Assembly (NCBI GenBank): GCA_036971615.1
Contig: JAYKKR010000004.1
Span: forward strand, 2,046,001 to 2,110,000
From: Amyloporia xantha
Taxonomy: Eukaryota > Basidiomycota > Agaricomycetes > Polyporales > Adustoporiaceae
Length of the DNA stretch: 64,000 nt
Direction: 5' to 3'
Shown here in pieces: positions 27,590 through 48,839 of the stretch (positions are counted from its first letter, which is position 1; the number at the start of each line of letters is the position of its first letter). The notes under the pieces are model-generated. The model worked only from the letters and a program-made list of their open reading frames with translations. It was not told the origin of the DNA and searched no databases. The translations under genes and the position numbers were made by a program.

Positions 27590-28088
27590 TGACAAATTTC
27601 ACTTGTCTCTTAACTTGAAGCTCTCCTCGTAATACTTGTTCTCTTCGAGGAAAGTTGCGTAGTTGACAATTATCTGTGCGTTCGCAATATGCAAATCCAG
27701 GATTTTGTCGTAGACAGCTTTTGCGGACTCAACAGTGCCGAGCGACTCTTCAAGATCGACGGAGAACGACCACAGCTTTAGCGATCGGAAAAGTCGAGCT
27801 TGCACCGGTAACGTCTGTAGAGATATTCAGTCAGACCAGTAAGGAGACAGACCGATGAGCACTGACGTGATCATGATAATTAATTTTTGTGTTCTTCAAA
27901 ATGGCCGAAGCCCACTGCATGACGCGAATCGCTTCGTCGTAGCTCCTGCGCTCATGATTAGGTCTCATATAGACGCAGGAACACCCACTCATGCCGGATT
28001 TCCGTTTCTGCCCATTCAGGCCATGTCTCCGCTAGCTCGTCCAGAGACTTGAATTTGACTTTCGTCGCCTTGTGGACGCACTGTGCGC
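27590..28088 (-). pseudogene. SYF1: Pre-mRNA splicing factor SYF1, internal fragment
   Basis: SYF1 is a HAT-repeat scaffold of the Prp19 complex in the spliceosome. Three minus-strand exons show HAT motifs: KATKVKFKSLDELAETW and WAETEIRHE (about 28.0 kb); YDEAIRVMQWASAILKNTKI (about 27.9 kb); and LFRSLKLWSFSVDLEESLGT followed by AKAVYDKILDLHIANAQIIV and NYATFLEENKYYEESFK (to 27.6 kb). Only about 110 of the usual 850 or so residues remain, with nothing recognisable at either end. Upstream it is joined directly to the 3' end of PMA1 copy A, within about ten bases of 28090, and both lie on the same strand. Confidence 0.9.
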
Positions 28089-30150
28089 GCCGTCCATGAA
28101 CGTCACACCGAACTTGCGCCAGCAGAAGTCCGTCCTGATGCAGACAGCCACGAGCGCGATGCTATATCTTGGCTATATCATAATCAAAGTTAGCGCTCAC
28201 TCGATATGACGTAGAAGATACGCACGTAGAAACAGTGAGGTACAAGCCATGAGCAACTGCAAACGAGAAGATCTCAGCGAGATCCCAGCTATCAGGTGTG
28301 CTGACGGCAGCATCCGATCGACCGACAACGTCATGATCGTCCCGTCGTTGAGCAGCGCAATGATCAGGACCATGAACGGCGGGAAGTCGAAGCGGAACGC
28401 GAAAGCAAGGATGGCGAAGCAGACAGCGATACGAATGGTGACAACGCAAGCGTAGATGGAGTAGTTCCTCAAACGCTGGAAGATAATACGCGAACCACGG
28501 ACAGCGTGGACGATCGTCGAAAGACTGGGCTTCGTCAGGACAATGTCGGCAGCACCACGAGCGGCGTCAGTGGCACCCTCGACGGCAATACCGACGTTAG
28601 CACGAGACAACGGGGTACATGTGGTACATGTGGTCACCGAGGCGGAGACGACATCCAGCTTCTTCGCGATGGCGAGCTGGTCACCGGTCACCATCTTGAC
28701 GCGGACGCCGAGGGCCTGAGCATCGTCGATGGTCTGCTTGGTGTCCTCACGGGGAGGGTCGAAGATGGGAAGAAGACCAATGAGTTCAAAGCCATTACCT
28801 TCACCCCCGTAGCCATCATGGTCGAGCTCCTTGTAAGCAACAGCGAGCGCACGGAGACCACGCATGGCAAACTCCTCGACATCGGCCTCGAGCTTGTTCT
28901 CGATCTTTTCCGTCTTGTTGCGCGTGCTCGATGATGATAACGGTCATACCCTTGGTAACATGCTTGAGCTGGCCAGTCGACTCCTCGCGGTAAGTGATCT
29001 CGGTACGCTTGTCGACAGGGTTGAGCGGCTTGAAGTCGAGCAACTTGATCGACAAGCGAGCACGAGCCGTGTCGCCGAGTGCGCCGCCAACGCAAGCATC
29101 AATGGCATCCTGGTTTTCAGTACGAGAGGCGTACGCCGCGAGAAGGATAACGTCCTCCGCCGAGAAGGAACCGTAGGTACGAACGGTCTCGCGAACGATG
29201 GTCAGCTTGTTCGTGGTAAGCGTACCAATCTTGTAAGCGTACCAATCTTGTCCGAGCACGAAATGGTGACAGCAGCCAGCTCCTCGATGGCAGTGATACG
29301 CGTGACAATGGCCTTGTACTTAGCAACCTGCTAAGCACCGACGGCAAGTGTGACGGTCAAGACGGTAGGCATGGGGATGGGAATACCACCAATCCAAAGC
29401 ACCAGGATGTTGTTAAGACCACGACGATAATGATAACGAAAACTGGCGTAGAGACAGAAGATCTCGGCGAGGACGAAGATACAGATGGTCACCAGGCAGA
29501 AAGAGCCGACCTGAGCGAGAATCTCCTGCAAGTGACCGGTAGAGTCGTCATCCTGACCGACGAGCGACGCAGCGTGACCAAAGAACGTGTTGAGACCGGT
29601 AGAGATGACAACATCTTCAGCCTCTCCTTGCTTACAGATTGAGCCGCTATGAAGCACGCGACAATATAAGCGTCTCGACACGAACTGATACCACGAATCA
29701 ACTTACGAGAAACACTGGTCACCCATCTTCTTGTCCGGGAAGAGACTCGCCAGTGAGAGTGGCCTGGTCGATCGACACATCGATGGCCTCCGTCAGACGA
29801 CAATCGGCGGGAACAATGTCACCGATCTTGAAGGAAACCATATCATCCGGGACCAACTTGATCTCGAGCCACGAGCCACTGCGCTTGACCTTGGCCTTGG
29901 GGGCCAACGAATCCATGAGCACCTTGACGGCATTACCAGCGTTGTGCTCTTCGTAAAAACCGATGGCCGAGTTGATGAACAGAAGGAGGACGATATCGAT
30001 GAAATTCTCCCAGTCAAGAGGCATGTGCTTTCTGTTCGACAGAACAATAGCGACAAGCGCCGGCTCCGCGGTTGCCCAAATCAGGCAGGAAACTGTCGCG
30101 ACAGCCTGTCGGAGCGCCCACCTCAGTGCTTTGTCTCCGGCTCCGGGGTG
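28089..30150 (-). pseudogene. PMA1: Plasma-membrane H+-ATPase, copy A, inside a Plavaka intron
   Basis: PMA1 is the P-type proton pump that energises the fungal plasma membrane. Copy A begins within the second membrane segment ([12 protein letters not shown]) with no N-terminus. It keeps the actuator motif (TGES, about 29.75 kb) and much of the P domain, but is heavily broken: frameshift after TGESLP; TGG to TAG in VGA*QVAKYK (29331-29333); a 17-bp tandem duplication (29218-29251) in the phosphorylation motif, which also reads CSDKIGT instead of CSDKTGT; frame loss near 28.93 kb; deletion of about 55 codons including the TGDGANDAP hinge near 28.62 kb; and a frameshift after DRMLPS. It ends in the last but one exon (TDFCWRKFGVTFMDGA), where SYF1 begins. 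It is divergent from copy B, so the two were not copied from each other recently. Confidence 0.95.
29218..29251. repeat. 17-bp tandem duplication in PMA1 copy A
   Basis: AAGCGTACCAATCTTGT is present twice head to tail. On the coding (minus) strand this duplicates the codons of the aspartyl-phosphate motif and shifts the frame. Confidence 0.95.
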
Positions 30151-30151
30151 T

Positions 30152-30840
30152 GAGATCATCGAAAAGAGGCAAAGGATGAAATAAGAGTAGAGAAAGAACA
30201 CTTACCACTATGTCACCAACGAGTCCATACTCATCCCATAGAACACCAAGCTCGAAGGTTTCAACGATCTGCGTGAGCTCGTGATCGACGACCTGATCCT
30301 GGCCCGTTCGTCCTAAATTCGTACTCTTTGCAGTGCATCTAGATATACAAATCATTGATGAACGAGCTGCTTGGTGGAGTTGAATGAGACATAGGACTTA
30401 CTTAGCACACCAGCCCTGCATGATGCAAGCGAGTAAAGCTTGTTCCGGATAGTCCGCGATGTATGGGCCAAGACCGTAGATAACACATCTGAAATGTCCG
30501 TCAGCATAACGGACTACCTCGGGTGTCGTCATCCCAGGTTTCAGAGACTGGAATATTCTTGACAGGGATGAGTGAAATAGCTGTCGACGAAACTTCCCAA
30601 ACTTGTTGTCGTCCGCACATTGTCTATCAGCTATTGGAAATCAGGATTAATGCACGGAAGCTTCCGCAGTGCAATACGGACTTACTCTTAGGAATCACCA
30701 GGAAACCGATTAATGCAAGTGTGCGTCGAACATTATTGTGAGTGCTACCAATCCCGATATATAGCGGATAATATTCATTCTGTCCAGTTGCAACCGAAAC
30801 AGTTGTCTTATCACTGCCAACTATATATATGATAGGCACA
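30152..30840 (-). mobile_element. Plavaka transposase, middle exons, ending at the PMA1-bearing intron
   Basis: Three minus-strand exons with good splice sites: about 30839-30686 (GSDKTTVSVATGQNEYYPLY), about 30623-30403 (KFRRQLFHSSLSRIFQSLKP, GMTTPEVVRYADGHFRCVIY, GLGPYIADYPEQALLACIMQ) and about 30338-30206 (HELTQIVETFELGVLWDEYG, LVGDIV). These follow, in family order, the part seen at 20.0-20.8 kb. The last exon ends with a GTAAGTGTTC donor; 54 bases of intron (30205-30152) match the intron start at 45.14 kb, and then PMA1 sequence begins. The exons are open, better kept than PMA1 copy A. Confidence 0.9.
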
Positions 30841-30856
30841 AACGCAAGGCGTACAT

Positions 30857-33239: not shown

Positions 33240-34070
33240 GTGAGCTGCCCAGACTCGACACTACATACCTGTAAGCTCCACACCGCGTCTTGATCAATCG
33301 AGTCATGGGTTACATAAAAAATAGCCAGAACAGCCCATGGAAGCAAAAATGGGCGACACAGCGTCACGTCGGTAAAGGATAAAGGCGCGATGCTGGTCGA
33401 GAGAGAGAAAAAATCACGAGTCGTACAGGTAGAGATACTGAATGCGTTTCCGTAAGGTTTTTACAGACATTCCTAATCTGTAAACTTCCCAAAAGAGACA
33501 GAAAAAAATGAAGTTTCACTGCTGTCTCCTCGGCCGATCCCGACATCCGACATCGTCCACTATCCGCCTTTACTGCTCCTCTCGGCGAACTGCCTTTTCA
33601 AGCCAAACTGCATGCCCTGCCCCTATGCGCACCTCACATTGATGGTGCCCACGTCCGGTGACCAGCTAGCATGAGCGTCGCCCGGTAGCATCAGCAAATG
33701 TCAACTTTGTCTTATTGGTCTTAAATGCCTTAGATAAGTTCGTAAGTGCCCTAATGACAGAGAGAAACCGTAAGACATAATACACTTTACCAAGACCAAA
33801 TGGTTTAAATAAGACGATCCCTTTACTTTAATCGTCCTTAAACCTCTTTTATGTTCCTTTCCCAGACTTACTGCCGTCATTAAGTGTATCAGTAATATCT
33901 CAAATTCACTTAGCGGTTCTTATTGTCCTTAGATGCTGGTCTAAGTACGTAAAACACATGTCTTATAATTCTTATTCCACTTAAATCCAGCTTACTAGGA
34001 TCTTGATCATGTTCTGAAAATGCTTCTCTGCTTGATAGCAAATTTATTATTGACTCCAAGACAGAATAAA
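33240..34070. other. AT-rich stretch rich in CTTA/TTAAG motifs
   Basis: No gene. From about 33.70 to 34.00 kb the words CTTA, TTAAG and GTCTTA recur about every 15-25 bases on both strands. The part ...CATTTAAGACCAATAAGAC... followed by ATTTGCTGATG (reverse complement near 33.70 kb) resembles ACATTAAGACTCAATAAGG ... ATTTGCTGATG at 42.29-42.33 kb, so the two AT-rich stretches may be copies of one element in opposite orientation. Confidence 0.45.
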
Positions 34071-34769
34071 GTGACCACAAGAAGATGAAGACGTAATAAG
34101 TAAAATAAAGTACAGGAAAAGATGGTCGACAGGGCCCGCACAGCCCGTCCAGCCATAACCAGCGGATCACGAGCGGAAGAGATGCAAAGCTTACGAGATA
34201 CCAGAGCTAGCGAATTCGGTAACGAACATCCCTCCGCCATCTGCCGCGAAGCCTGAGAAGGCACCATCAGACACACCGCTCCACAAAAAGATACTTCAGT
34301 GTCACCGTACGAGCTGGTGGATGGCGTCATCACCACACAGCCCTCGTTGCCATTCGCAGCGGTAGAGCAGTCCGTCGAGTTGATCAGCTTGCTCATCTGG
34401 ATCGTGTTTGCGGAGTGCGAGCAGCCCTATTAGATCACCATCAGCGCCGCCGTCCCGCACATTAAAATGGCACCACGACTTACTGAGGTGGTGTGCAGGG
34501 TCATCTGGTTCATCGTTACCTGGAATTGACGCCTTCGAAAGGGTCGATCTAAAATACACAGCTTCAGTTCCGCCGATCAATGCCCGAACACGATCTATCC
34601 ACGCACGATCTATCCACGTACCTCTCCGCCGCTCGGCCAGTCCACCGCGGAAGACCAGAACGCAGGCCATACAGAGCACTGCATACAACTTGATTGAGCG
34701 GGCTGAATGGAGGCCGCGGACCGGACGCGGAGCCGCTGATGCAGAGGCGAACCGTCCGAACGACAGATC

Positions 34770-36330
34770 GGCGAGATGGCAGAACAGCCAGCCCCAGCCG
34801 ACACTGCAGACGGCCTGAGCATCGAGAATCGACCCAAGCACGCACCTCTGCGACGGGATTGCATGGTGCTATCGACCGGCAGCAGATACTGACCTGTGGG
34901 CACGGTCTTGTGTCTCGAGTCCTCGATGGACGGGAATCAAATGCTAATGTGCGGATCAGCTAGAGACGTGTGAGATCGAATGTACAGACTCACCTGTGTC
35001 AGTCTCCGCACGATCCCGCCGTTGCCAGGATCCACGGGGCGTGCACTCGCCCTGATCCCCAATCTCCATTCTCCTGCATGCTATCTTCAAAACACACACT
35101 CGATCCCGCCCTCCCTTCTCGAGCGCGCGAAGCGGACAACACACTACACACTACAGCCTGAGACGGACGGACAGGGGCTGCCCTGACGGACTAGGCTTGC
35201 GTGACGGCACGCCAGTGAACGGCCGAGATAGGAGCGGGGAATGGGTCCATAGTGTGAGCGCAGGAGTGCACAGCGGGGCGGGACCCGTGAGGGGACGGCG
35301 CAGGGGTGCGCGCCTCGGGTGGAAGGATGGCCAGCCCCTGCTGACGTTGCCCACAGCCCGAACATCGACGATCGGCCCCAGTACGTACTTGTGAGACACG
35401 ACTGCACGGTCCCATCGACCGGCGGGGCATGTACATACCGGTCTGCGGATGCAGTTCCGAGACCCGAGTCCTCAACAGACGGGGAGTGGACGCTCGAGCG
35501 CTCATCAACGAAAGAATAGCGAGAGTAAGTGGACGGACTCACCTGGCATGTCTCCGCATGAACCTGCCCTTGCCAGGATCCACGGGCACACGCTTGCCCT
35601 CAACCCCAGTCCCCCTTCTCCTGCATGCTACCTCCAACACTCAGTCTCGGCCCCGCCTTCCCTTCTCGCATGCAGTGGACAGCACACTGCAAATAGCAGA
35701 CCGGACTGGCCGACGAACGAGGGCAGCGCCGACGGACTGAGCTTGTGTGATGGCGCGCCGGTGAACGGGCAAGAGGGGAGTCGGGAGTGGGTCCATAGTG
35801 TGAGCGCGGGAGTGCACAGCAGAGCGGTTCCCGGACGAACGTGCAGGACTTACGCTAGGAGCTGGAAGTGGGCGAGGTGTACGATCAGCGCTGAGCGTCA
35901 GCTGTCGGGAAAGGGGAGGGCACTAAATGGGCGCTGGTGAGTGCTGTACGGGGCTTGGACTGGGTAGAATAAGATGCATGGTTGAGGGGTGTGCATGGGG
36001 ATGGAAGGGAGATGGGAGCCGACAACAGGCGACACGCCAAAGTAGCGACGGGGCTCGTGCTTGTGCTACACACCACTAGATGCAGAGCCGTCCAGTGCGC
36101 CGTCATTCGCGCGCCGCGCTCGTTGATGTCGTATGCCTGGTCAAAGGTGCAGCGCTATAGCACTGTGGGCGTGACTGAACGCGTCGGGGGGTCGGTGGCG
36201 CGCCGGTGAACGACCGAGAGAGGAGTCGGGAGCGTGTCTATGGTGCGAGCGCGGGAGTGCACAGCGGTGCGGTTCGCGGAGGAACGTGCCGACCTTGCGC
36301 TAGGGGTACGATCAGCGCTCAGCGTCGAGT
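34770..36330 (+). repeat. Diverged tandem repeat, unit about 545 bp, two copies plus a partial third
   Basis: Copy 1 about 34770-35310, copy 2 about 35311-35850, partial copy 3 about 36190-36330. Shared landmarks in order: ATCGACCGGC; CGAGTCCTC; TGCCAGGATCCACGGG; TCTCCTGCATGCTA; CGCCGGTGAACG (and variants); GTCCATAGTGTGAGCGC followed by GGAGTGCACAGC. A second word, AGCTGTCGGGAAAGG, recurs at 35.90 and 36.34 kb. The many open frames here are shadows of GC-rich composition. No coding function is visible. Confidence 0.8.
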
Positions 36331-36364
36331 GCTGAGTGTCAGCTGTCGGGAAAGGGCAGTGCGG

Positions 36365-36545
36365 GGATGGGTCCTGCCCACGGTGAAGTGGTCTTTCGTC
36401 GAGATGCGCACGCTGTTGCGATTGCTGCCGACATTCACGGTAGATGTGTTGTCGACCTTGATCATCGTGTTCCCGGCGCTGTTGACGAACGCGAGGTTGT
36501 CCTTGCCTGCTTCTTGTGCGCTGGACGAAGCTGTGGAGGTAAAGA
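36365..36545 (-). pseudogene. GH16 beta-glucanase fragment
   Basis: One minus-strand exon reads AGKDNLAFVNSAGNTMIKVD followed by NRNSVRISTKDHFTVG, the strand pattern upstream of the catalytic site in fungal GH16 endo-glucanases acting on cell-wall beta-glucan. The expected continuation with the WPAFW and EIDI(I/M)E catalytic motif is missing; GC-rich repeat DNA follows. Upstream minus-strand sequence (36.6-36.95 kb) may hold a decayed earlier exon but is not readable with confidence. Confidence 0.65.
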
Positions 36546-37198
36546 GCCTTAGTTGCTGGTGCAGGAGAACGCACGCTTCAACCTACTTAACATTCCCCTG
36601 GGTCAGATTGTTGTCTGTGCGCCGAGTCAGTCGCATTAACAGTAGACAGAATAATCGGAGAAGGTGAGGGTATAATGCTCGCCATTATCGGCGGGGGAGT
36701 CGAGCGGGCGCATGTTGGCAGGGCTGACGGAGTACTGGGAGGCAAGGCGGAGGCTGAGATGATGACGATACCATGTGAGTGATGCCGACAACGACGACAA
36801 CGCCAACAAAGGGACTTGGTCCAACCAATGTCCAACTCAACATCGACACCGAACCCACACGTGCCCGCCTGCAACAATGCACTTACGTAATCTAGGGCTG
36901 CTTCAGGCCCTCCGTCTCGAGTCGAAACGTTAACTAATATTTCTTGATATACAGGCATCACGTTGGGGAATCTGCACGGGAAGCACTTACTGTCCAAGAG
37001 CTGCTCGCTGGAGTTCGACACGTCAATACACAACGTTGTACTGGCCTCATGTCAAGAGGAACCGACCCCCGACGACATCCGAAAGGAACCAGAAGCGTCC
37101 ATGGGAGAACACCTGAGGACCAACGAGTGCAATTCGCGGGACACAGATACATGTAGACATCGTTGAACTGCGTGCAGATCGAATCTTTTCGCAGCGCA

Positions 37199-37205
37199 TA
37201 TAAAG
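37199..37205 (+). promoter_or_regulatory. TATA box of the AAT1 pseudogene
   Basis: TATAAAG, about 40 bases upstream of the first recognisable aspartate aminotransferase codons. Confidence 0.45.
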
Positions 37206-37237
37206 ACTCCAGCCCAACTTCGGATCTCCTGTTCCCC

Positions 37238-38381
37238 CAGATCCACCCTCACCCGCCCCCTTACCCGAGCTGCGCCGCAACAAGTGCGCCATGCTGCTGC
37301 CCTGTCGACCTGGTCTGCGGTCCCCGCGGGTCCGCCGGACCCGATTCTGGGTGCGTAGAACTGTTCTTTGGCCCGGGCTCTGTTTCCTGGGATTCGTTGT
37401 GTGGTCTTGGCTGGGTGGGCGTGCTCGTGAGCAGACGAGAATAGGCTGTCTGGAACCTTGTCCATTCAACGAAGCTATGAAGCCTATCTGGCTGTCCTAA
37501 ACGGTTTTTCGTGCGAGCGTCTCCCGATGATCCTCCGTGACGCTCACCACCGTCCTCCTCCTCCACTCCAGGTGTGACGGAAGCCTTCAAGGCCGACAAG
37601 GACCCGCGCAAGATTAACTTGGGCATCGGCGCGTACCGTGACAGCAATGGCAAGCCCTATGTCCTGAACAGCGTCAAGAAGGCTGAGGACTTCCTCACGG
37701 CGCACAACCCCGACAAGGAGTACCTCCCAATCAGCGGTCTGCCCGAGCTCACGAAGGCTGCAGCGAGGCTTGCGTACGGTGCAGACAGCAAGCCTCTCAG
37801 ACAAAATTCGGTGTGTGTCGGTTCTAGTCATGCCCTGTGTTGCAACAGAAGGAGATGCGCGGTGCTGAACTGGGTTTAATGTGGTGATCGCGCACAGATC
37901 GCCGTGGTTCAGTCGATCTTGGGCACTGGTGCTTTGCGGATCGGCGGTGCGTTTGCAGCGTTTCTTCCCGCACTCCATCCCAACCCCTCGTGGGACAACC
38001 ATACCGCTGTCTTCTGCGACTCCTGGCTGGAAGTGAAGCAATACCGATATTTCGACAAGAAGATGGTAGGTTGCGCTACACCACTTTATCTCTTCTGGAC
38101 ACCAGGTCGCGCTTGCGCAGTCGTTCGCGAAGAACATGGGCTTGTACGGTGAACGTGTCGGCGCGTTCTCGCTCGTTGCGGCAGCGCGTGGAGAGCCAGC
38201 TGAAGATTGTGATCCGGCCTATCCGCCGCTGCACGGCACGCGGATTGCGAGCACCATCTTCATGAATGGCTAGCTGTATGGTGAGTGGGAGACTGGGGTG
38301 AAGGGCATGGCAGAGCGCATCATCAGCATGCGAGACCATCTGTACAATAACCTGGTTACATTGAACACTCCGGGCCAGTGG
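37238..38381 (+). pseudogene. AAT1: Mitochondrial aspartate aminotransferase, internally deleted
   Basis: The enzyme interconverts aspartate and oxaloacetate with PLP and serves the malate-aspartate shuttle. Visible: targeting leader LTRPLTRAAPQQVRHAAALS and STWSAVPAGPPDPILG (37.25-37.35 kb); [20 protein letters not shown] (37573 on); IAVVQSILGTGALRIGGAF (37899 on) to EVKQYRYFDKKM; then, after one intron, VALAQSFAKNMGLYGERVGA, which carries the PLP lysine (SFAKNMGLYGER), and KGMAERIISMRDHLYNNLVT. The exons coding for the whole middle of the large domain, between YFDKK and the PLP-lysine segment, are missing, cut exactly at intron positions. There is no start codon in the leader, a TAG in FMNG*LYGEW (about 38.27 kb), and the C-terminus stops at NTPGQW, where the BDF1 leader begins. 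Confidence 0.9.
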
Positions 38382-39695
38382 GCTCTCCTGTCACTCCCCA
38401 TGATGGTCATGCGTTTCCCTTCATTCTCCATGGCCGACGCGACTATCGCCGTCTCCGTGAGCCACATCAACGGTCACGCAGACCCTGCCTCGCCTGCTAT
38501 CGACTCCCCCATTACCCCTATCGACAACTCGACCTCCTCAGACAGCAAGATCGATGTCGACTATACCGGTGCCGAGTCAGATGTCCGCCACGAGCCAGTC
38601 GCGATGAAGATCGACTCGGTCGAGGACGCGTCTGTGCAGCCACAGATGGGCACCCCCATAGATCCAGGTAACGCGCTCCCTTTCGCTCGTTGTCCTCTTA
38701 CTCATCCCCTCTCAAGCCACCATTCCCATCAAGCCACCCAGTGGTACCCCTCCTCCGCCAGCGGGCCAGCTCCTTGAGGATGTCCGGTCGGCCGAAGAAG
38801 CTCTGCCCACAAAGGACAGCGACGTGCAGATGGCGGACGCTGACGTGAACTCTACGTCTTCTAATGGACTCTCTAACGGACACGAAGCCGAGTCTCCGCC
38901 TTCTTCTCTACCCGCTGTATCGTCCAGCGAGACCGTTGTCGACTCACATGCTGCTGATTCTCCATATCCTAATAATACAACTAGTGATCACAATGATGAT
39001 AAACCCCCTCCCGCTACGAGAGCAAGAAAGTACTTGGACGCTGAGAGAGCATCGCTCGCTAATGTAAGTTGTTGTCTTCTGTACACCGTTGCGGGCGTGC
39101 TGATGGCGTCGTCTGCAGACTGGCACTCCACCTCCAGCATCCGCGTCGCCCGAATCGCCGCCGACGGCTCTTCCCCTGCACACTGGTCCTCCGGTCAACA
39201 ATTCGTATATTAAAGAAGATCAAAGACTCGGGCCCTTTCTTGCACCCTGTTGACCCTGTTGCGTTGAACGTCCCGCACTACCCTTCGATAGTCAAGCATC
39301 CAATGGGCTTCTCGACGGTCGACCGCAAGATGACTTCTCGAACCCTTCGAAGCCCGATCTGAATCCTACCAATCCTCGTTACTATAACGTCGACGAGTTC
39401 ATTGCTGATGTTCGTCTAATCTTCGTCTAATCTTCACTAACTGCGCGCTGTTCAATGGTCCCGACCATCCCATCACCGCTATGGGTAAGTGGGTCAAGGC
39501 TGTTTTCGACGAACAGATTAAGCAGATGCCGCCCGGAGGAGGTATAAACTAATTATTTGTCATTTTATCTCAACAACTACTTATTTTATATTGTACTAGT
39601 AGCAGAAAGCCCCTGCCGTCAAGAAAATAGCCACACCTCCACCTCCCCCTCCAGCAGCAACCTCACGGTCTCACAGACATCAGCGTCTGGTGATA
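38382..39695 (+). pseudogene. BDF1: BET bromodomain protein BDF1, first half
   Basis: BDF1 binds acetylated histone H4 and works with TFIID. CT-rich leader, ATG at 38430 (MADATIAVSVSHINGHADPA), long acidic/Ser-rich N-terminus, intron at 38668, exon to about 39063, intron, then bromodomain 1: IRILKKIKDSGPFLHPVDPV, ALNVPHYPSIVKHPM, RYYNVDEFIADVRLIF, NCALFNGPDHPITAMGKWV, QIKQMPPGG. Lesions: frame change before IRILKK (about 39.21 kb), frameshift in the ZA/BC linker (DRKMTSRTLR, about 39.34 kb), and an 11-bp tandem duplication (CGTCTAATCTT, about 39413-39434) in helix B. After the P-rich linker the gene is interrupted near 39.69 kb by the segment that holds a hexosaminidase; its second half resumes at 41.58 kb. 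Confidence 0.9.
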
Positions 39696-40100
39696 AGTCG
39701 AATCGATACCTGCTATATCGCATTTCATCAGAACATTGACTCGACAACGACCCGCTTTGCAGCGAGACACAAGATGTGCCTGTGCAGGGGAAGAGATGCT
39801 TAGTGGGGCGCGTGTGTCTTAGGAGATGTGAGTGTCAAAAAAAAAGCGACCATCTGGAGATGTCGCTGACAGAGAAGCGATAGAGGCAAGCTAATCTCAG
39901 GCCTCGAGAGTGATCATGCGACTCAAGATGTACAGCCATGTGTCGAAACGGACGTGGATGCGCCGAGGATGCACACGCGGTGAGAGAGATACGGTTTGAT
40001 GGCCTTCGGTTCCCTGTGAGAATACAAGAAGGCGGAGGTGCGTGCAGTCAGCCGTGCTTGTCCGCAACGACGTCCAGCGCTCGACTCGCGACTGCCCACC

Positions 40101-41532
40101 ATGTTCAGCAAGGCTGTCTTCGTCGTGTCGTGTCTCGCCGTTGTCTCGCGCGTCGATGCCATCTGGCCATTGCTTCACAGCCTGAACGAGGGTACGACTG
40201 CCTTGTGTTTGCCCTTCAGCTTCCACATCGCTCTGTCTCGGGATATCGCCCCTGTTCCCCAGGACCTATACGACGTGATCGGTCGCACTCAGCAGTACCT
40301 CTTTACTGACAACCTCGGGCGGCTCGTCGTTGGACGCGGCTCAAGCGATGTCAGCGCGTTCGAGACCGCGGCGTACCTCCCGAGCTCACCCTGTCACTCG
40401 AGCCTGGCTCGAAGGTGCTCTCCATTACCGAGGAGGCCCAAAAGCTCATTGAGGAGCGCGACGAGGCATACACCCTTACTGTCTCCTCGAACGGGTCTGC
40501 GGCCACGATCACAGCCACCTCCACTCTGGGTCTCTTCCGAGGCTTGGACGACGTTCGCTGAGCTGTGGTACACGTATGATGGCACGATCTATGCCACCAA
40601 CACGCCTCTGGAGATTGAGGACTCCCCGCTACGTATGTTGATCCCTCGTTGACGTTGTGTTATGATGCTGATTGAGGTGTCGCCCAGCCCTACCGTGGTC
40701 TTTTGTTGGACACTGCGCGTAACTAGTAAGTGCCTGATGGACGTCACGGAGAACAGCTTATTGAAATGTCAGCTTCGGGGTGTCCGACATCCTCCGCACT
40801 CTTGACGCTATGAGCTATGTGAAGGTCAGTCGCGTCACATACTAGTTGATCTACTACCTGCATACTAAAATCCTCGACAAATCAATCAGCTCCACTGGCA
40901 CGTCGTTGACAGCCAGAGCTTCCCGCTCGAGGTCCCCGGTTACGAGGATCTCGCTGCCTATGGCGCGTACTCGCCCGAGATGGTCTACACCGCCGCCGAT
41001 GTTAAGAACATCATCTCGTATGCGGGAGCTGTGAGTGCTTTCTATGGAGTGTGGCGTCAAGAGATGTCGTACTCAAATGTACGATCTAGCGCGGTATCGA
41101 TGTCGTCGTTGAAATTGACACCCCTGGACACACCTCTGCCATGGCTGACGCACACCCCAACTACCTGGCTTGTGTGGACTCTCGCCCTTGGGCCAACTAC
41201 GCAGCAGGTCCGGCCCTTCTCCACTTGTCCATGGGCATTTGCTGACCGTTCGTGTTGTCGCAGAGCCTCCTTCCGGCCAGCTGCGTCTTGCCAACTCGAC
41301 CGTCATGGAATGGACTGCCGGCTTGTTCACTGCCGTCGCTGACATGTTCCCATCGTCCATCATCAGCACTGGCAGAGACGAGGTCAACACCTACAGCTAC
41401 GAGACCGATGATGCGACCATGGCGATTCTGAACGCCACCGGTGCGACGTTGAATGACGCACTGGACAACTTTGTGGGCAGCACGCACACTGCGCTGATCA
41501 AGGCCGGGAAACCACCGCTGTTTGGGAAGGTG
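40101..41532 (+). pseudogene. GH20 beta-N-acetylhexosaminidase inside BDF1
   Basis: A secreted enzyme that removes terminal GlcNAc from chitin oligomers. From the ATG at 40101: signal peptide (MFSKAVFVVSCLAVVSRVDA), GH20 N-terminal domain (DLYDVIGRTQQYLFTDNLGR), then after a segment read in the wrong frame (about 40379-40540; one base lost at YLP, one gained before TTFAELWYTYDGT) the catalytic domain: PYRGLLLDTARNY, QLHWHVVDSQSFPLEVPGYE, RGIDVVVEIDTPGHTSAMAD, and the acid/base site SIISTGRDEVNTYSYE. The family has GGDE here; the second glycine is arginine (AGA), although the Asp-Glu pair is kept. The gene ends at GKPPLFGK, so the C-terminal third is missing, and BDF1 sequence follows within about 45 bases. 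Confidence 0.9.
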
Positions 41533-41574
41533 AGGCCGAGAGCTCTTCGATCGAGACGCCTAAGAGGCAGGCAC

Positions 41575-41829
41575 CTGCGCGAGACCACTGACGACTGTGC
41601 CCGTCATACGTCGTTCTGAGGAGACCCCTCAAGGTGGAAGACCCAAACGCGTGATACATCCACTGGCACCGAAGGATCTCCCTTACGATGCTCCAAAGAA
41701 GGCGAGGAAGGCAAAGGCGCCGAAGAACGACGTCTTTGCGGAGCAATTCAAGTATTGCGACGAAATCTTGAAGGATCTTCATAAGAGGAACCTGTACAAC
41801 ATTGCGCATCTGTTCCATGAAACCGTCGG
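41575..41829 (+). pseudogene. BDF1: BET bromodomain protein BDF1, second part
   Basis: The linker TTVPVIRRSEETPQGGRPKR, the KDLPYDAPKKARKAKAPKND segment and the start of bromodomain 2 (EQFKYCDEILKDLHKRNLYN, IAHLFHETV) continue BDF1 on the same strand as the first half, 1.9 kb away. A GTAAGT donor follows at 41830 but no further bromodomain 2 exon is seen. The obvious reading is one BDF1 copy interrupted by a hexosaminidase-bearing insertion and truncated at the 3' end. Confidence 0.9.
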
Positions 41830-41834
41830 TAAGT

Positions 41835-42480
41835 ATCGAATCCCCTGCGCGTGCAAAGCCGACCCCTGATCATTCGTTGATCGTTCAGCAAAAATATCTG
41901 TCGTTCTTCTCGACTACATTGTACGAGCGGCGCACTTGATCCCTGTTTACAGAACCACACAAGTGCCATATAATATGCGCCATTTTCATTCCTTGGATGC
42001 ATTTCGTACTTTCTATGTAAATAAGTTTGCGGACCATCACATGTATGAAATCTTAGCATAGCTTGATGTATAGACCGGGCTTATAGCGACTTCATGAGAT
42101 GAACAGTCTCTCGCCTTTTGTTAGATTTTGCTTTGTTCTCTTTCTGAACTTGTCAAAATTTAACTCTTTGGTCTTTTTAGTTATATCTCCTCTTTTTGTG
42201 GATTAAAGTTTACTTAGTTACTTGAATGACTTGGAGAGCGTACAGCCAATGTATGATCAAGACCGAAAGTAAAATAAGTCCATTGAAAGTACATTAAGAC
42301 TCAATAAGGAAAATTTGAGATTTGCTGATGTGGGCGCCAATCAAATCTGACAAATCAGCTGTTAACTCTGAGGGCGGCTCACACATTCAGAGTCAGCTGC
42401 AACTCCGCCATGCAGCTTTGTCACGTGGCGGCAGGTGCACATGGCCTTAGGGCACTCTGCTCTCACCACGGGCCCTAGCA
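41835..42480. other. AT-rich spacer, no gene
   Basis: No open frame of interest. The part 42.10-42.35 kb is AT-rich and partly resembles 33.70 kb in inverted orientation (shared ATTAAGACTCAATAAG-like and ATTTGCTGATG words). Confidence 0.5.
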
Positions 42481-42673: not shown

Positions 42674-43223
42674 AGGGCTCCGCTGCCCTTGCCATCTGAT
42701 TCCTTGTGCGAAACCGGGCTCTCCTCGCTGTCAGACCACTCGATGACAGCCTTCTTCCTTGACTGGATCCCTGGAAATGTCAGTGGTACATTGCTTCCGC
42801 CATCCCATTAAATAACTGACAATACCTTTTTATTTTGGACTGGAATGTCTTCACCGCTGTCTTTATCAGGGTTCAGACCCTTCGATCCTTTGACACCTTG
42901 GTCGCCAAGGACGTTTAGCATTGCGTAGGTTCGTCAGAGAGGACCAGGCTGACCGGGTTTACGAATAGGTCTCCAACTCCGCGATGCATCCTGATTATGG
43001 TCCCCAGCAGCCATCTTTTTTTTTTGGTGGAGCGTTGCACCCCGGCTAGGACTTAAGTCAACTAGGACCGGTCTGAAAGGTGCACCCCTCGGCAGCCGGC
43101 AAAGCCATCTCTCTGGGGCCACTGGCGTTTGTAGGGAGCCTAAGACCCCACAAAGACGCCCACGTTGGGAGGAAATGCATTATGCATACGACCGGCCCAT
43201 CGATACGGATTACCGGAAGTAGT

Positions 43224-43240
43224 GTGGGACTCTCACCCAC
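43224..43240 (+). ncRNA. T-arm-like hairpin beside the left inverted repeat
   Basis: GTGGG-ACTCTCA-CCCAC is a perfect 5-bp stem with a 7-base loop, the geometry of a tRNA T arm, ten bases before the left arm of the 43.25-44.82 kb segment. The loop sequence is not a good B box. Only suggestive of a decayed tRNA-derived SINE. Confidence 0.2.
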
Positions 43241-43269
43241 TAAAACCCCCCATGGTAGTGTCTCCTAAG

Positions 43270-43430
43270 TTCAGTTCAGTTCAGTTCGGCAGGTATTTTG
43301 GCCGAACCCTGAACCGAACCTGCATCCATATGCCTGAACCTGAACCTGAACCTGAACTGAACCTGCCAAACCGGTTCAGCAGGTTCAGTTCAGGTTCATA
43401 ACCAGTTCGAACCTTCTGAACCTGTAATTT
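43270..43430. repeat. (GTTCA)n / (GAACCT)n simple repeat
   Basis: Short units GTTCA and GAACCT are repeated in both orientations, giving palindromic stretches such as AACCGGTT. A GC-richer relative occurs at about 44690-44800. Confidence 0.85.
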
Positions 43431-43882
43431 ACCAAATAAACAAAATTTAAATCAATTTACACTAGAGTACTGCACACATCCACAACATGATCATACAGCA
43501 GCGCAAGTGACACAGCCATGCCTGCTAGAAAGCCCTCATAACACACTCCTCTAGTACATGCACTCTCCACCAGACAATGAAAACTCCAATTTTGTCTGGA
43601 CCCTTTGCGAGATGCACTGGGGCCATCAGCTGCAGCTGCTCGATCCAATGGCTAATCACCCCCTCTGCAGTGCACGAATGACCGTCCACATGTACTCCAT
43701 CACCGCGAACAATGGCGCAAACGTGCGGGGCCTAAAGTCCACTGATGCCCTCCTCACATCCAGTACAACCTCCACGCAAAGTTCAGCAAGACAACGGTAC
43801 ACTTAGTTTGGCTTGCGCACGCACCTTTGGAGCCTGCGCTAGTAGCTGCGCCCGAGCTTGATGATGGCTGTATGCCACTCCC

Positions 43883-44380
43883 TTGAGGTTTCTTGCCCAA
43901 CGTCACCGGCTTGCGAACGTGCCGGTGGTGCTGCGACGGCTGCTGTCGTTGGTCTGCTTGCCCCATGTTGACTGCGCGAAGAACGCTCGGTTCCCGAGGG
44001 GATCCGAGTCGCTCGGCGTTACCAAAGGCGCGCCTTTGCAGTGCGCAACGCCGGCGCAGGGTGTAGATGCCGTGCGTTTCGGCGGCGCGCCTGTCGAGTT
44101 TGCACTCGATGCGGAGCCCCCTAGCAGATCGACGCTCGGGGGCAATACGTCTGTGGCGCGAGGTTAGCTGTCAGCAGTAGTGGCCGCGGCGTCACGCACC
44201 TGTAGGGCCCCTGCTGCTACTACCGGCGCTCGAGCTTGACGGTGCCGGTCGCGTTGTGTCATTGTGCTTGCCTGGTGTTGGCTGCACGAAGAACGCTCGG
44301 ATGCCGAGTGAATCGGCGTCGCTCTGAGCTACCTTTGAGGTGGGCTTGCGAACGCGCGCACGGGCGATGCGCAACTTCAC
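43883..44380 (-). repeat. Diverged direct repeat encoding LGxRAFFxQ
   Basis: Two segments about 315 bases apart (about 43.95-44.02 and 44.27-44.34 kb) share GAAGAACGCTCGG and, read on the minus strand, encode SDSDPLGNRAFFAQSTWGKQ and SDADSLGIRAFFVQPTPGKH. The shared peptide pattern suggests a repeated domain in a former element protein. Family unknown. Confidence 0.5.
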
Positions 44381-44832
44381 GGGTGTTTGGTTCTTGAGTA
44401 GCAGTGCTGGCAGGTAAGCTAAGTGTTAGGACTGTGGAAGGAAACAGCGAAGGCGCCGCGTGGAAAGGCTGTTCCTCACCTTCGGGGTGGTGGTAGGCGG
44501 CGCTGTTAAGCCGGCCATCCGCGTCGAGGGCACAGTTCGCGCTCAGAAAAGCGAGAGAAAGCACTTGCGAAAACGAAAATTGGGACGCGCGATGAAGATC
44601 AATCTTGATCAGATCGATCAACTTTCCCAATTCGGTTCTTGGTTCGAATGCGTTCGCACCGGGTTCGACCAACGCGCTGCCACACCAGAACCGCGGACCG
44701 AACCTAACGGCCAGCGGCCGGACCGAACCTGGACCGGACCTGAACCCTAGGTCCGGTTCACCGGTTCGGGGTTCGGACCTAGGTTCAGGACCGAACTTAG
44801 GAGACGCTACCCCATGGCAGGATTCAGACGGT

Positions 44833-44905
44833 AAACCACCCAGGACGGGCTCGAACCTGCGACACACTGACATGATCAGTTGCCACAAGCTGAGGCTTGT
44901 TGGTG
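44833..44905 (-). tRNA. tRNA-like sequence (Met-type anticodon), probably SINE-derived
   Basis: On the minus strand there is a perfect B box (GGTTCGAGCCC, plus-strand 44847-44857) and an anticodon-like hairpin ACTG-ATCATGT-CAGT whose 7-base loop has T33 and CAT in the anticodon place. The acceptor ends do not pair and the T stem is poor, so it is not a working tRNA. It lies just outside the right arm of the 43.25-44.82 kb segment. Confidence 0.3.
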
Positions 44906-45061
44906 ATGCTGCCACCGCACCACCGCCACCCCCCCCCAGCAGCCATCTTATCCTCTATATCAGCAGCACGACGAATATCGTTTTTTTGTATATCTTTCTT
45001 GGCCTCTTTGGTGGCGGTTATAACCTTTCTAGATGCCTCCATTTCTGCCTTGGTGCGCCGG

Positions 45062-45200
45062 TGGCTATGCTCGTTGAAACGTTCGAGCTTGGTGTTCTAT
45101 GGGACGAGTATGGACTTGCTGGGGATATCGTAGTAAGTGTTCTTTCTCTACCCTTATTTTAAACTTTGCATCTTTTTGATGATCTCGCATACCCGGCTAT
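45062..45200 (+). mobile_element. Plavaka transposase exon end and intron start (copy B, upstream half)
   Basis: VETFELGVLWDEYGLAGDIV is the same exon end as in the minus-strand copy at 30.2 kb, followed by the same GTAAGTGTTCTTTCTCTAC donor and intron start, identical or nearly so to about 45192. The upstream transposase exons are missing; tRNA-like and repeat sequence precedes. The next transposase exon is at 48489, after PMA1. Confidence 0.9.
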
Positions 45201-45229
45201 TCGTGGTTTGCACATTATCTTCTAACATG

Positions 45230-45300
45230 CGCTGCGCTCGTCACCATCGTCCTTTCCAACAGTGAACACGCGCCTCCCGACTGGGAGGATATCATCGGGG
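45230..45300 (+). pseudogene. PMA1: Short extra PMA1 fragment in front of PMA1 copy B
   Basis: AALVTIVLSNSEHAPPDWED reads like the second membrane segment of the H+-ATPase and matches 46128-46195 in copy B. It sits where PMA1 sequence begins in copy A, shortly after the shared Plavaka intron start. So the plus-strand unit holds a remnant of the copy A type junction and, behind it, a second PMA1 that starts from its own promoter. Confidence 0.8.
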
Positions 45301-45618
45301 ACAGGCTGCAGCTGATGGGGTCAGTCAGCAGAGTTGGCATTCAACTTGCCGATGTCCGGCGGGTCACTCTCCTCTGCGAAGGCTCGGGCGCAGGCATTCC
45401 CAAGCAGACGGCTCAGGGCTATGATATCTCAGCGGCGGGGCTGTATCCATACCCTCTAACATGGACTCCGCCGACCGATATCCCCCCTTCCCTCATACCC
45501 CCAACTCATCCTCTGTGTGTCGCATCGCCCGACCTCTCTCGCGCTAGTGAAGCCGCTCTCCCTCTAAGGTTCTCCCTACGCTCCTGTTCCCCCATCCCGT
45601 TCACCTACCTGCCTCACC
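45301..45618 (+). promoter_or_regulatory. PMA1 upstream region
   Basis: The region before the ATG is CT-rich (about 45530-45615) and ends in CCTCACC before the start codon, the usual layout for highly expressed basidiomycete genes. No clear TATA box is seen. It shows that copy B was copied as genomic DNA with its leader. Confidence 0.5.
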
Positions 45619-48440
45619 ATGTCCACTCCCAACGAGAAGGTCGCTGGCCCTACAGAGCCGGTGGCAGACTCCAAGACGCCCGGTACCCCCAATGGGCCGG
45701 AAAAGAAAAAGAGGGAGTGCAAGGACTTCGGCCATGAAGAGGAAGCGGCTACACGTATGTTTTTTTCCTTGTCATCGCCTGTGTCGTCTTCGTCATCTGA
45801 CACGTAAAACCTCACAGATGCCAAGGTGGACATGTCCCAGATTCAGCTCCGCGCTGAGGACCTCTACGACAAGGAGAAGGTCGATCTGGAGACAATTGTC
45901 GTCGAGGACGTGTTCAAGCTCCTCCAGTGCGACGAAAATGGTCTATCCAACGAGAAGGCTGGCCGCCGTCTCGAGCTGTTCCGTCACAACAGGCTCGAGG
46001 CTGAGGAGCAGAACCCCTTCCTTCAGGTATGCGCTCTCGTCATTGTTTTGTTAATGCACTGTTCATCGCGTGTTTTTTGCAGTTATTGGGCTTCATCTGG
46101 AACCCGCTCTCATGGGTCATGGAGGGTGCCGCGCTCGTCGCCATCGTCCTTTCCAACGGTGAACACATGCCCCCCCATTGGGAGGATTTCATCAGTATCG
46201 TCCTCCTCTTATTCATCAACTCCGCCATCGGTTTCTACGAAGAGCACAACGCTGGTAATGCTGTCAAGGCGCTCATGGACTCGCTCGCTCCCAAGGCGAA
46301 GGTCAAGCGTAGTGGTTCATGGAAGGAAATCGAGTCTGCAGACCTCGTACCTGGTGACATGGTTTCGTTCAAGATCGGTGACATCGTTCCCGCAGATTGT
46401 CGCTTGACCGAGGCTATCAACGTCTCGATTGACCAGGCCGCGCTTACCGGAGAGTCCCTCCCCCAGAGCAAAAAGATGGGTGACCAGTGTTTCTCGTAAG
46501 TAATGGTGGATGTGTAAATTGTCATGCGAGTCTAATATTTCTTCACAGTGGTTCCACCTGTAAGCTGGGTGAGGCCGAGGGTGTTGTCATTTCTACTGGT
46601 CCCAACACTTTCTTCGGTCGTGCCGCTTCGCTTGTCGGTCAGGATGATGACACCACCGGTCACTTGCAGAAGATTATCACCCAGATCGGTTCTTTCTGCT
46701 TGGTTTCTATCGGTATCTTCGTCCTCGCTGAGATCTTCTGTCTCTACGCTGGTTTCCGTTACCAGTACCGTCGTGGTCTCAACAACATCTTGGTCCTCTT
46801 GATCGGTGGTATTCCCATTGCCATGCCCACCGTCTTGTCTGTTACGCTTGCCGTCGGTGCTTGGCAGGTTGCTAAGTACAAGGCCATTGTCACTCGTATC
46901 ACTGCCATTGAGGAGCTTGCCGCCGTCACCATTCTGTGCTCTGACAAGACCGGTACGCTTACCACTAATAAGTTGACCATCGATCGCGAGACTGTCCGTA
47001 CCTACGGTCCTTTCTCTGCTGAGGACGTCATCCTCGTGACAGCATACGCGTCTCCGAGTCATACCGAGAACCAGGATGCCATCGATGCTTGCGTCGTCGG
47101 TGCACTCGGCGACGTGACCCGCGCTCGCGCTGGCATCAAATTGCTCGACTTCAAGCCGTTCAATCCTGTTGACAAGCGTACCACGATTACTCACCGCGAG
47201 GAGTCGACTGGCTCGCTCAAGCGTGTCACCAAGGGTATGACCGGTATCATCATCGAACTCTGCACACGTAACAAGACGGACGAGATCGAGAACAAGCTCG
47301 AGGCCGATGCCGAGGAGTTCGCCATGCGTGGTCTGCGCGCGCTCGCTGTTGCTTACGAGGAGCTCGACCACGTTGACCACGAGGGCGAGGGTAACGGCTT
47401 CGAACTTATCGGTCTCCTTCCCATTTTCGACCGTCCCCGTGAGGATACCAAGCAGACCATTGACGACGCCCAGGCTCTCGGTGTTCGCGTCAAGATGGTG
47501 ACTGGTGACCAGCTTGCTATTGCGAAGGAGACAGGCCGTCGTCTTGGTCTCGGTGATCGCATGTACCCCGCCAAGGTGCTCAAGGATGGACCTGCGCCCG
47601 GAGGCAAGCACGGTTCGCTCGACGAGATGATTCTCGACGCCGACGGTTTCGCTGGTGTCTTCCCCGAGCACAAGTATGAGATTGTCAAGCGTCTCCAGGG
47701 TCACGGTCACTTGGTTGCCATGACTGGTGACGGTGCCAACGACGCGCCCTGCTCTGTCCCATGCTAACGTCGGTATTGCCGTCGAGGGTGCTACTGACGC
47801 TGCTCGTGGTGCAGCCGACATTGTGCTGACCGAGCCTGGTCTCTCGACGATTGTGCGTGCCATCCGCGGTTCGCGTGTCATTTTCCAACGTATGAGGAAC
47901 TACTCCATCTACGCTTGCACCATCACCATCCGTATCGTCGTCTGCTTCGCTATCCTCGGCGCTCGCGTTCACGTTCCGCTTCGACTTCCCGCCCTTCATG
48001 GTCCTGCTCATCGCCTTGTTGAACGACGGTACTATCATGACGCTTTGGGTCAACCGTGTTCTCCCCTCAAACACTCCAGACAGTTGGGACTTGGCTGAGA
48101 TTTTCTCGTACGCCGTCGCTTACGGTCTCTATTTGACTGCGTCCACGTAAGTCATCAAGCTCTCTCATGGCTTTTATTATGTATTGATTTAATTGTCCCA
48201 TTCAGGGTTGCTCTTGTCGCTATCAGCATCAAGACTGACTTCTTCTCGCGCAAGTCGGGTGTGGCATTTATGGACGGCGCGGCGCGCACAGCACGGCCAC
48301 CGACTGCAATGACCCCGATCTTGCACTCAATCGTCTACCTCGAGGCCATGATCATCTCGTAGGCCCTCATCTTTGTCACTCGTTTGCACAGTTTGTCCTT
48401 CATGGAGCGCCAGTCTGTCACGCTGTTCTGTGCCCTCTTT
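45619..48440 (+). pseudogene. PMA1: Plasma-membrane H+-ATPase, copy B, nearly full length with three late lesions
   Basis: Five exons: 45619-45754 (MSTPNEKVAGPTEPVADSKT), 45818-46026, 46083-46495, 46549-48146 and 48206 to about 48440. All P-type hallmarks are present: actuator TGES (about 46447), phosphorylation motif CSDKTGTLT (about 46938, with the invariant Asp), KMVTGDQ, and hinge TGDGANDAP (47723 on), plus the ten-helix layout of fungal PMA1. Lesions: one extra T just after GDGANDAP (about 47750) shifts the frame; a second indel follows at [15 protein letters not shown] (about 47960); CAG to TAG at 48360-48362 (IIS*ALIFVTR). The regulatory C-terminal tail is missing; Plavaka intron end follows. 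The first 710 or so codons are intact. All introns are kept, so it is not a retrocopy. Confidence 0.95.
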
Positions 48441-48488
48441 TCTAGTCTTTTTTCAGTAATTATAATGACTTATGTTGCCTTGTTTTCA

Positions 48489-48818
48489 GCCATTCACCAA
48501 TGACTTCCCCCATGCCGATATTCACGAGCTTATTGCACCCGACCTCCTTCACCAGCTTATCAAGGGAACGTTTAAAGACCATCTCGTTGATTGGGTCGGA
48601 CAGTATCTACACCTGAAGCATACAAAATGCGAAGCAGAGAAGATCCTGGCGGATATAGATCGACGGTAAGTAGCTGAAGTCCACAGAAGTTCAGCAGAAC
48701 ATCTAACAGCCGTTCTAGTATAGCAGCGGTTCCAGCGGTCTCATGCCTTCGGCGGTTCCATCAAGGATGGGGATTCAAGCAGTGGACCGGAGACGATTTG
48801 AAGGCACTTATGAAGGTA
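48489..48818 (+). mobile_element. Plavaka transposase exons downstream of PMA1 (copy B)
   Basis: After a good acceptor (TTGTTTTCAG) the exon reads PFTNDFPHADIHELIAPDLL, HQLIKGTFKDHLVDWVGQYL to ILADIDRR (ending about 48667), then an intron and IAAVPAVSCLRRFHQGWGFK, QWTGDDLKALMK with a GTATGT donor at 48816. In the family these residues directly follow the GDIV exon end found at 45134, so about 3.35 kb containing PMA1 lies between two consecutive transposase exons. No further transposase exon is recognisable beyond 48.83 kb. Confidence 0.95.
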
Positions 48819-48839
48819 TGTACATAAGCTTGTTGACTC

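Follow-up and report, generated by a model that had tools for sequence, protein, structure and literature searches.

The question raised by this locus is how a piece of a host proton-pump gene, PMA1, came to lie between two consecutive exons of a transposase gene of the Plavaka family in Amyloporia xantha. The locus is part of a stretch of 64,000 nucleotides, here called the window, and was compared with the rest of the genome (46.8 Mb in 60 contigs, labelled C plus a number); contigs C34 and C13 hold the window copy at corresponding places. The answer that we regard as quite probable is that a lineage of Plavaka elements has used one transposase intron as a recurrent site for host-gene cargo, and that the window copy is a relic of that lineage.

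Structure of the window copy

The layout of the copy can be read directly. The upstream transposase exon (...LVETFELGVLWDEYGLAGDIV) ends at 45132 and is followed by a GTAAGT donor (45133-45138); the PMA1 start codon lies at 45619, and a CAG acceptor (48487-48489) precedes the next exon, PFTNDFPHADIHEL, which begins at 48490. Exon end and donor, PMA1, TTTTCAG acceptor and next exon thus follow one another over 45133-48490 as a preliminary description of this DNA had reported. The copy comprises the following features:

42678-48838, plus strand: Plavaka relic of the PMA1-cargo clade, with both termini and the 5' transposase exons missing
44934-45065, minus strand: piece of the element's second, divergently read gene, adjoining an internal deletion; 92% identical to C10 3687-3818
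45067-45132, plus strand: end of the upstream transposase exon (MLVETFELGVLWDEYGLAGDIV); 91% identical to the C42 exon by tblastn
45133-48489, plus strand: cargo intron, GTAAGT ... TTTTCAG, 3357 bp; the same intron is 56 bp in the sister copy C58
45231-45298, plus strand: remnant of an older PMA1 passenger, 68 bp, preceding the leader; 86% identical to 46128-46193, of which it is a repeat
45297-46246, plus strand: PMA1 segment of the host-C11 type, with upstream region, leader and exons 1-3; 93.1% identical to C11 and 71.9% to C55
46259-48003, plus strand: PMA1 segment of the host-C55 type; over 46258-48126, 96.2% identical to C55 versus 83.6% to C11
48007-48438, plus strand: truncated 3' end of the PMA1 passenger, older-passenger type; over 48127-48440, 91.4% identical to the second fragment of C10, 77.0% to C55 and 75.9% to C11
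48490-48666, plus strand: downstream transposase exon, starting PFTNDFP; found by tblastn, with Pfam Plavaka on the joined exons
48729-48815, plus strand: following transposase exon (VPAVSCLRRFHQGWGFKQWTG...); found by tblastn

The identity of both partners was clear from profile searches. The joined exons (a query made by joining the C42 and window peptides) matched Pfam Plavaka, PF18759, at 3.7e-66 over profile positions 168-325, and, over 66% of its length, a joined transposase query was 76% identical to a Laetiporus sulphureus protein. For its part, the window PMA1 matched E1-E2_ATPase (6e-16) and Hydrolase (4.8e-12). The two peptides flanking the intron had been described as adjacent in Plavaka proteins, and this was borne out by a strict motif search of 120 listed fungal Plavaka proteins: they touch without a residue between them in 55 and are separated by 1-30 residues in 5, the exact motif being absent in 60 (among 8 of the latter that were inspected, a variant motif joined the peptides directly in 4, and the other 4 gave nothing). 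In C58, moreover, the two exons are only 56 bp apart. This empty sister intron supports the placement of PMA1 inside a transposase intron, where it lies in the orientation of the transposase.

The window copy is a dead relic of a loaded Plavaka family. Its segments 42678-43016, 44934-45065, 45066-45298 and 47732-48838 are 88-94% identical to C10, and C10 3819-6380 is absent from the window. The 68-bp remnant at 45231-45298 falls in a stretch 93% identical to C10, where that stretch continues into PMA1. The locus is repeated on contig C13 at 99%, with the same junctions. PMA1 had been called nearly full-length, a term that has to be abandoned: it carries frameshifting indels, is interrupted in the host frame by a stop at 48360 and ends at about 48438, before the last exon of the host gene, so that the complete open reading frame expected of a functional PMA1 is lacking. 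The whole host gene was accordingly not what the copy retains; the passenger is complete at its 5' side, truncated at its 3' side, and frameshifted. By eye, the peptide of 44934-45065 resembles a minus-strand open reading frame of C25.

One transposase intron is the cargo site in sister copies

The cargo intron was located throughout the genome by searching with the flanking transposase exons and measuring the gap between them. The count took in copies of the window's clade with both flanking exons (n = 15; the C13 counterpart was not counted separately). Copies without the downstream exon (C34:2076 kb and its C13 counterpart, C18:189 kb, and the fragments C5:900 kb, C29:273 kb and C53) and without the upstream exon (C4:1149 kb and the C42 copies at 54, 74 and 168 kb) were omitted. 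In 14 of the 15 sister copies the intron measured 2.0-9.5 kb, C58 with its 56 bp being the sole short one. The sizes were 1989 and 1992 bp (C41 and C3, in the order reported), ∼3030 bp (C42), ∼3290 bp (C10), 3357 bp (window), 4533 bp (C16), 4960 bp (C12), ∼6370 bp (C17), ∼6885 bp each (C25 and C55 at 482 kb and 571 kb), ∼7170 bp (C29), 8556 bp (C22) and ∼9460 bp (C23). The neighboring introns stayed short, with 48-66 bp upstream (20 rows, the one called "window" being a separate relic at 30 kb) and 56-86 bp downstream (16 rows); among the 14 loaded loci they were measured at 8 upstream and at 12 downstream. More distant Plavaka in the same genome comprised 13 copies with an intron of ∼49-74 bp by search coordinates, 8 of which were re-measured. 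One distant copy, C32:72450-76200, has a 2.4-kb inverted repeat in this same intron, without a recognized host gene.

The intron contents differed among copies. A comparison with other Plavaka copies, proposed in the preliminary description, revealed PMA1 in the same intron at C42 and C10, and the relic at 28.1-30.8 kb of the window also carries PMA1. Pfam searches on open frames identified Rpb1 domains 5, 6 and 7 in the C41 insert, Clathrin in that of C17 (the C4 and C25 pieces falling below the cut-off), two bromodomain matches and one kinase match in C16, and Glyco_transf_15 in C12; Pfam was silent for 13 of the 28 protein pieces scanned, including several open reading frames of C12, C22, C23 and C29. 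All five cargo types have DNA matches elsewhere in the genome. Thus, the Rpb1 cargo is 95% identical to C1:4110080-4111392, the C17 clathrin cargo 95-97% to C8:262380-266203, the C12 cargo 94% to C12:1288936-1291177 and 82% to C23:1056476-1057607, the C29 cargo 91% to C12:3035838-3038225 and 89% to C17:494120-494928, and the C16 cargo 86% to C1:3441990-3443454. A complete gene was read for host PMA1 only, at C11 and C55, the other matching places being presumed host genes. The C22 cargo resembles that of C12 (87-91%), C23 has pieces in common with C29, and the clathrin pieces of the C25 and C55 elements are rearranged and partly duplicated. The C22 cargo (C22:382900-391900) also holds a Copia-type gag recognized by Pfam, and retrotransposon sequence therefore enters this intron too.

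In a transposase tree built on the flanking peptides (88-209 residues per copy), each cargo fell in its own clade, with support of 0.87 for PMA1, 0.98 for Rpb1, 0.99 for clathrin plus mixed cargo and 1.00 for the mannosyltransferase; the bromodomain cargo is represented by C16 alone. The cargo clade as a whole, including C58, had a support of 0.65. Because five cargo sets fall in five clades, the tree suggests at least five loadings or replacements of cargo.

Movement and ends of loaded elements

Three elements with clathrin cargo were found complete, at C25:184831-200201 (15371 bp), C55:480140-495514 (15375 bp) and C55:564974-580343 (15370 bp). All start with CATCAGGAAATGTCAA and end with TTGACATTTGCTGATG, and they are flanked by duplications of AT (C25), TA (C55:480140) and AG (C55:564974). 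Over the common 11.86-11.96 kb they are 99.83-99.87% identical, with 5-6 mismatches and 10-13 gaps. The joined flanks of C55:480140, the one element for which this search was made, matched as one stretch when joined with one TA (query 21-418 or 25-418 of 418), revealing related empty sites on C28, C21 and C3 (98-99%) and on C18 (91%). The C25 upstream open reading frame matches PF18759 at 1.7e-28. Some of the loaded elements appear to have jumped recently.

The ends are of a described type. PlavakaB transposons carrying TET/JBP dioxygenases are described as having CATCA..TGATG ends, duplications of 2-3 bp, and a transposase with a catalytic D/D/E and C(2)C and H(3-4)H motifs (PMC12730594). PlavakaB-type 5'-CATCA..TGATG-3' ends were read on seven loaded elements (C25, both of C55, C17, C23, C16 and C29, the left end of C29 being the least certain), five of which show a 2-bp target-site duplication: AT, TA and AG as above, CA at C23 and AA at C16. 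With termini CATCAG[GC]AA..TTGCTGATG and 2-bp duplications, these elements do not conform to strict CACTA/EnSpm (CAC..GTG, 3-bp duplication). The window copy itself lacks both ends, and the Rpb1 elements C41 and C3 showed no left end in the flanking DNA examined. The mobilized capture put forward in the preliminary description is supported: other copies have PMA1 in this intron, and relatives with other cargo moved with complete termini and target duplications; the PMA1-bearing members presumably moved as well.

The terminus pattern occurs at 106 places genome-wide, many of those listed being paired about 200 bp apart, and a reversed control pattern gave 0. Elements of ∼200 bp with Plavaka termini, resembling miniature inverted-repeat transposable elements, were observed for instance at C1:1036151-1036351 and C12:4038472-4038672. 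This family was probably mobilized by the Plavaka lineage of the window.

Constraint on the transposase around the cargo

The transposase exons on the far side of the cargo have evolved under strong constraint. For the downstream exons, the comparison of C25 with C17 covered 199 codons and gave 15 synonymous changes and no nonsynonymous one; the corresponding counts were 18 and 0 for C25 with C23, and 20 and 2 for C17 with C29. Between C42 and C10, both with PMA1 cargo, the ratio of nonsynonymous to synonymous divergence (dN/dS) was 0.040 upstream and 0.043 downstream of the cargo, excluding two stops in the C10 upstream exon; for C16 versus C25 the transposase exons gave 0.034 and 0.053. The clathrin cargo itself, compared between C25 and C17, showed 44 synonymous and 53 nonsynonymous changes (dN/dS of 0.32, a value lowered by the choice of in-frame segments). 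Judged by these substitution patterns, the transposase is made across the cargo, or from both sides of it, and because the exons beyond the cargo are so strongly constrained, the cargo intron is probably spliced out.

Mosaic structure, renewal and decay of the PMA1 cargo

The genome holds two host PMA1 genes, on C11 and C55, which are 81% alike as DNA; the C11 protein is 92% identical to Wolfiporia cocos PMA1. Capture as genomic DNA, as had been proposed, agrees with the cargo, which retains PMA1 introns, upstream region and leader, and complete host genes remain at both places. One simple capture does not account for the window copy: relative to the present host genes, the passenger is C11-like, then C55-like, then like older cargo. 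Thus, 172 of 185 diagnostic sites are C11-like before 46246 and 282 of 327 are C55-like after 46259, and the breakpoints at 46246/46259 and 48003/48007 were each reached in 0/1000 permutations. The C42 cargo has the opposite order at the same alignment interval, with 18/18 sites C55-like and then 283/327 C11-like, followed by the remnant of a second PMA1 copy. One breakpoint each was found in the relic at 28-31 kb and in the second fragment of C10 (0/1000 permutations). The first cargo copy of C10 had no significant single breakpoint (472/1000 permutations), so that mosaicism is not universal.

The cargo has also been renewed. The transposases of C42 and C10 are separated by a synonymous divergence (dS) of 0.82 and their PMA1 cargos by 0.20, each cargo being 0.19-0.26 from host C11. 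By this measure the PMA1 cargo at both loci is younger than the split of the elements that carry it, so that renewed copying from the host, a second capture or an exchange between elements must have taken place.

The host genes were compared with 45 of 120 listed PMA1 homologs (labelled P plus a number). The nearest homologs P0001-P0005 and P0016 are closer to C55 in both the N-part and the body of the protein, and P0010-P0013 and P0017 are closer to C11 in both; over the 45, the N-part/body tally was 21 C55/C55, 5 C11/C11, 18 C11/C55 and 1 C55/C11. In the N-part tree, C11 groups with P0010-P0013 and P0017 (0.69), apart from C55 with P0001, P0004 and P0016 (0.835). The body tree unites C11 and C55 (support 0.0) inside the P0001 group (0.95), possibly because gene conversion homogenized the bodies of the two host genes. 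The simplest source of the mosaic would be recombination between cargo copies. A reciprocal exchange between the host genes after capture, suggested by the opposite C11/C55 orders in the window and C42, was considered and is disfavored: it predicts that N-part and body of close relatives side with different host genes, and the nearest homologs side with one host gene in both parts, although the tally over the 45 is more mixed.

With respect to the same 45 homologs, every one of the 34 polarized amino-acid differences of the window cargo (two segments) falls on the passenger side, and 25 affect invariant residues. On this evidence the window passenger is a decaying copy and not a working pump. 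At C42 there are 15 passenger-side amino-acid changes versus 30 passenger-side synonymous ones. Functional selection on the passenger was unsupported for the window, C10 and relic copies, and C42 was ambiguous. Most differences between the C42 cargo (C42:96600-100830) and host C11 are synonymous, some of the changes lying on the host side. A diverged functional allele or another species may have been the source of this cargo, and horizontal transfer of the C42 element would be one possible reading.

Proposed mechanism and alternative explanations

Most probably, cargo is acquired during the repair of breaks in the element, through invasion and copying of a host gene with end joining at one side. 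Such repair-copying would spare the host gene and retain its introns; old cargo would persist as partial duplicates at the joined side, and the switch would be seamless at the point where the copy returns to homologous sequence. Existing cargo would then provide homology to the host gene for the next repair and lead to re-copying, which would explain the renewal of the cargo. As to location, insertions in exons would kill the transposase, and insertions in an intron would be removed by splicing, leaving a functional enzyme and a loaded element that is still mobile. Exon lethality alone does not explain the use of one intron while its neighbors stay at ∼60 bp; a long intron may be a larger target, or the site may have some special property. 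It is also conceivable, though improbable in our judgment, that this is an evolved cargo site, an intron filled, cleared and refilled over and over with pieces of essential host genes because such pieces shield the element from homology-based silencing. Small RNA or methylation directed at the element would then also hit a gene that the host cannot lose, and repeated re-copying of PMA1 would keep the protection fresh.

Several observations weigh against a recurrently loaded, spliced and mobile lineage. Among the PMA1-bearing elements, none was found with both ends: C10 has its right end only, and no left end turned up for either C42 or C10. The flanking dinucleotides do not match at C17 (GC/TG) and C29 (AG/TT). 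A clathrin fragment is inverted in C23, so that sense orientation is not universal. The empty-intron C58 nests inside the cargo clade (0.77), as it could after an early gain and later loss. The mosaic could possibly reflect, in part, change in the host genes. C12 versus C22 gave synonymous to nonsynonymous counts of 2:3 and 3:2, with no clear constraint, the comparison of C41 with C58 was saturated, and C10 is the only copy with stops in the four flanking exon pieces (two, in the upstream exon). Finally, introns of 3-9 kb far exceed the usual fungal size and may splice badly. That these introns are huge for a fungus, together with the two C10 stops, also fits an explanation in which the cargo breaks the transposase and the loaded elements are non-autonomous, moved in trans by relatives with short introns in the manner of Pack-TYPE elements; copies with introns of ∼49-74 bp exist and could supply the enzyme. 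The 15:0 and 18:0 counts in exons past 6-9 kb of cargo, and the dN/dS of 0.04 on both sides of the cargo for C42 and C10, are unexpected for a broken gene, and we consider this explanation unlikely.

The remaining alternatives have far less in their favor. The window copy has no ends and occupies the same place on C34 and C13, as alleles would, which could be taken to indicate an accidental insertion or segmental duplication of PMA1 into one Plavaka copy that was never mobilized; the occurrence of PMA1 in this intron at both C42 and C10, with a dS of 0.82 between their transposases, and the movement of relatives with other cargo, with ends and duplications, make this very unlikely. Hardly more credible, and perhaps a little less, is retention of PMA1 as a functional passenger, an extra proton pump benefiting the element. 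The C42 cargo has no stop or exonic indel from alignment column 971 on and a dN/dS of 0.054 against host C11, a pattern that copying from a diverged functional allele or species would also produce; part of the gene is missing at all four PMA1 cargo loci, and the window copy shows the one-sided changes and several frameshifting indels described above. PMA1 paralogs and Plavaka copies are repeats and as such prone to misassembly, but an artefactual join is scarcely believable given identical junctions on two contigs (99%) and cargo in this one intron at 14 loci, which include five cargo types named by Pfam. Recurrent loading of one intron in a Plavaka lineage therefore remains the reading that we favor.

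Relation to known systems

It is already documented that CACTA-type and other DNA transposons capture host genes and that Plavaka elements carry passenger genes (PMC1947982, PMC8903248, PMC13317346, PMC6710886, PMC12730594). The TET/JBP Plavaka elements are of the same family, with a transposase plus passenger and the same ends and type of duplication; unlike their one recurring enzyme gene, the passengers here are varied, broken pieces of host genes in one transposase intron (PMC12730594). Pack-CACTA and Pack-TYPE elements and soybean Tgm-Express1 are likewise CACTA-related and carry several host-gene pieces (PMC8903248, PMC1947982, PMC13317346), and introns are kept in the Tgm-Express1 cargo, as here. 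Pack-TYPE elements are described as non-autonomous and lack transposase coding of their own, whereas here transposase exons flank the cargo on both sides, constrained in C25/C17, C25/C23 and C42/C10, and the cargo is confined to one intron. Capture of the histone H3 gene by a hAT element in Pseudocercospora and relatives is also a case in which a DNA transposon of fungi took up and amplified a housekeeping gene; that case involves one gene and another superfamily, and its abstract makes no mention of a transposase-intron site (PMC6710886). The Pleurotus Helitron likewise captures host genes in a mushroom but is a rolling-circle element with another mechanism and anatomy (PMC4289320). No report of host housekeeping genes in a Plavaka transposase intron was found in the literature searched, which consisted of titles and the starts of abstracts and mostly excluded subscription papers. 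What appears to be new is the use of one transposase intron as the recurrent cargo site of a constrained element, with cargo that differs by clade and is renewed.

By confining the cargo to one intron, as these elements illustrate, a DNA transposon may be loaded with kilobases of host-gene DNA and yet keep its own enzyme under strong constraint. The PMA1 cargo preserves a readable record, in mosaic stretches that switch abruptly and in cargo that postdates its elements, against which capture by break repair can be tested, and the three near-identical 15.4-kb copies offer a natural system for studying the splicing of giant fungal introns, gene capture and the silencing-shield question.

Other features of the window

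The window contains three loaded Plavaka relics, at 28-31 kb, 33689-42330 and 43-49 kb. The two besides the copy described above are as follows:

28072-30846, minus strand: second PMA1-carrying Plavaka relic, with upstream exons at 30401-30628 and 30203-30337 and PMA1 at 28623-30060 and 28072-28609
33689-42330, plus strand: third Plavaka relic, with Plavaka-type ends CATCAGCAAATGTCAA / ATTTGCTGATG and pieces of a bromodomain gene and a GH20 hexosaminidase gene

A downstream transposase exon was not found for the relic at 28072-30846. In the third relic the 3' transposase exons are deleted relative to C16, and the flanking dinucleotides, AG/TG, are mismatched. Its bromodomain-gene pieces lie at 39057-39646 and 41557-41879, with the GH20 hexosaminidase pieces between them at about 40310-41616.

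An insertion resembling a short interspersed element was noted by eye at about 43017-44936, with a tRNA B-box-like motif and short direct repeats CAGCAGCCATCTT. Nested inside it is a repeat of ∼1.55 kb (43258-44810) that is missing from the C13 counterpart.

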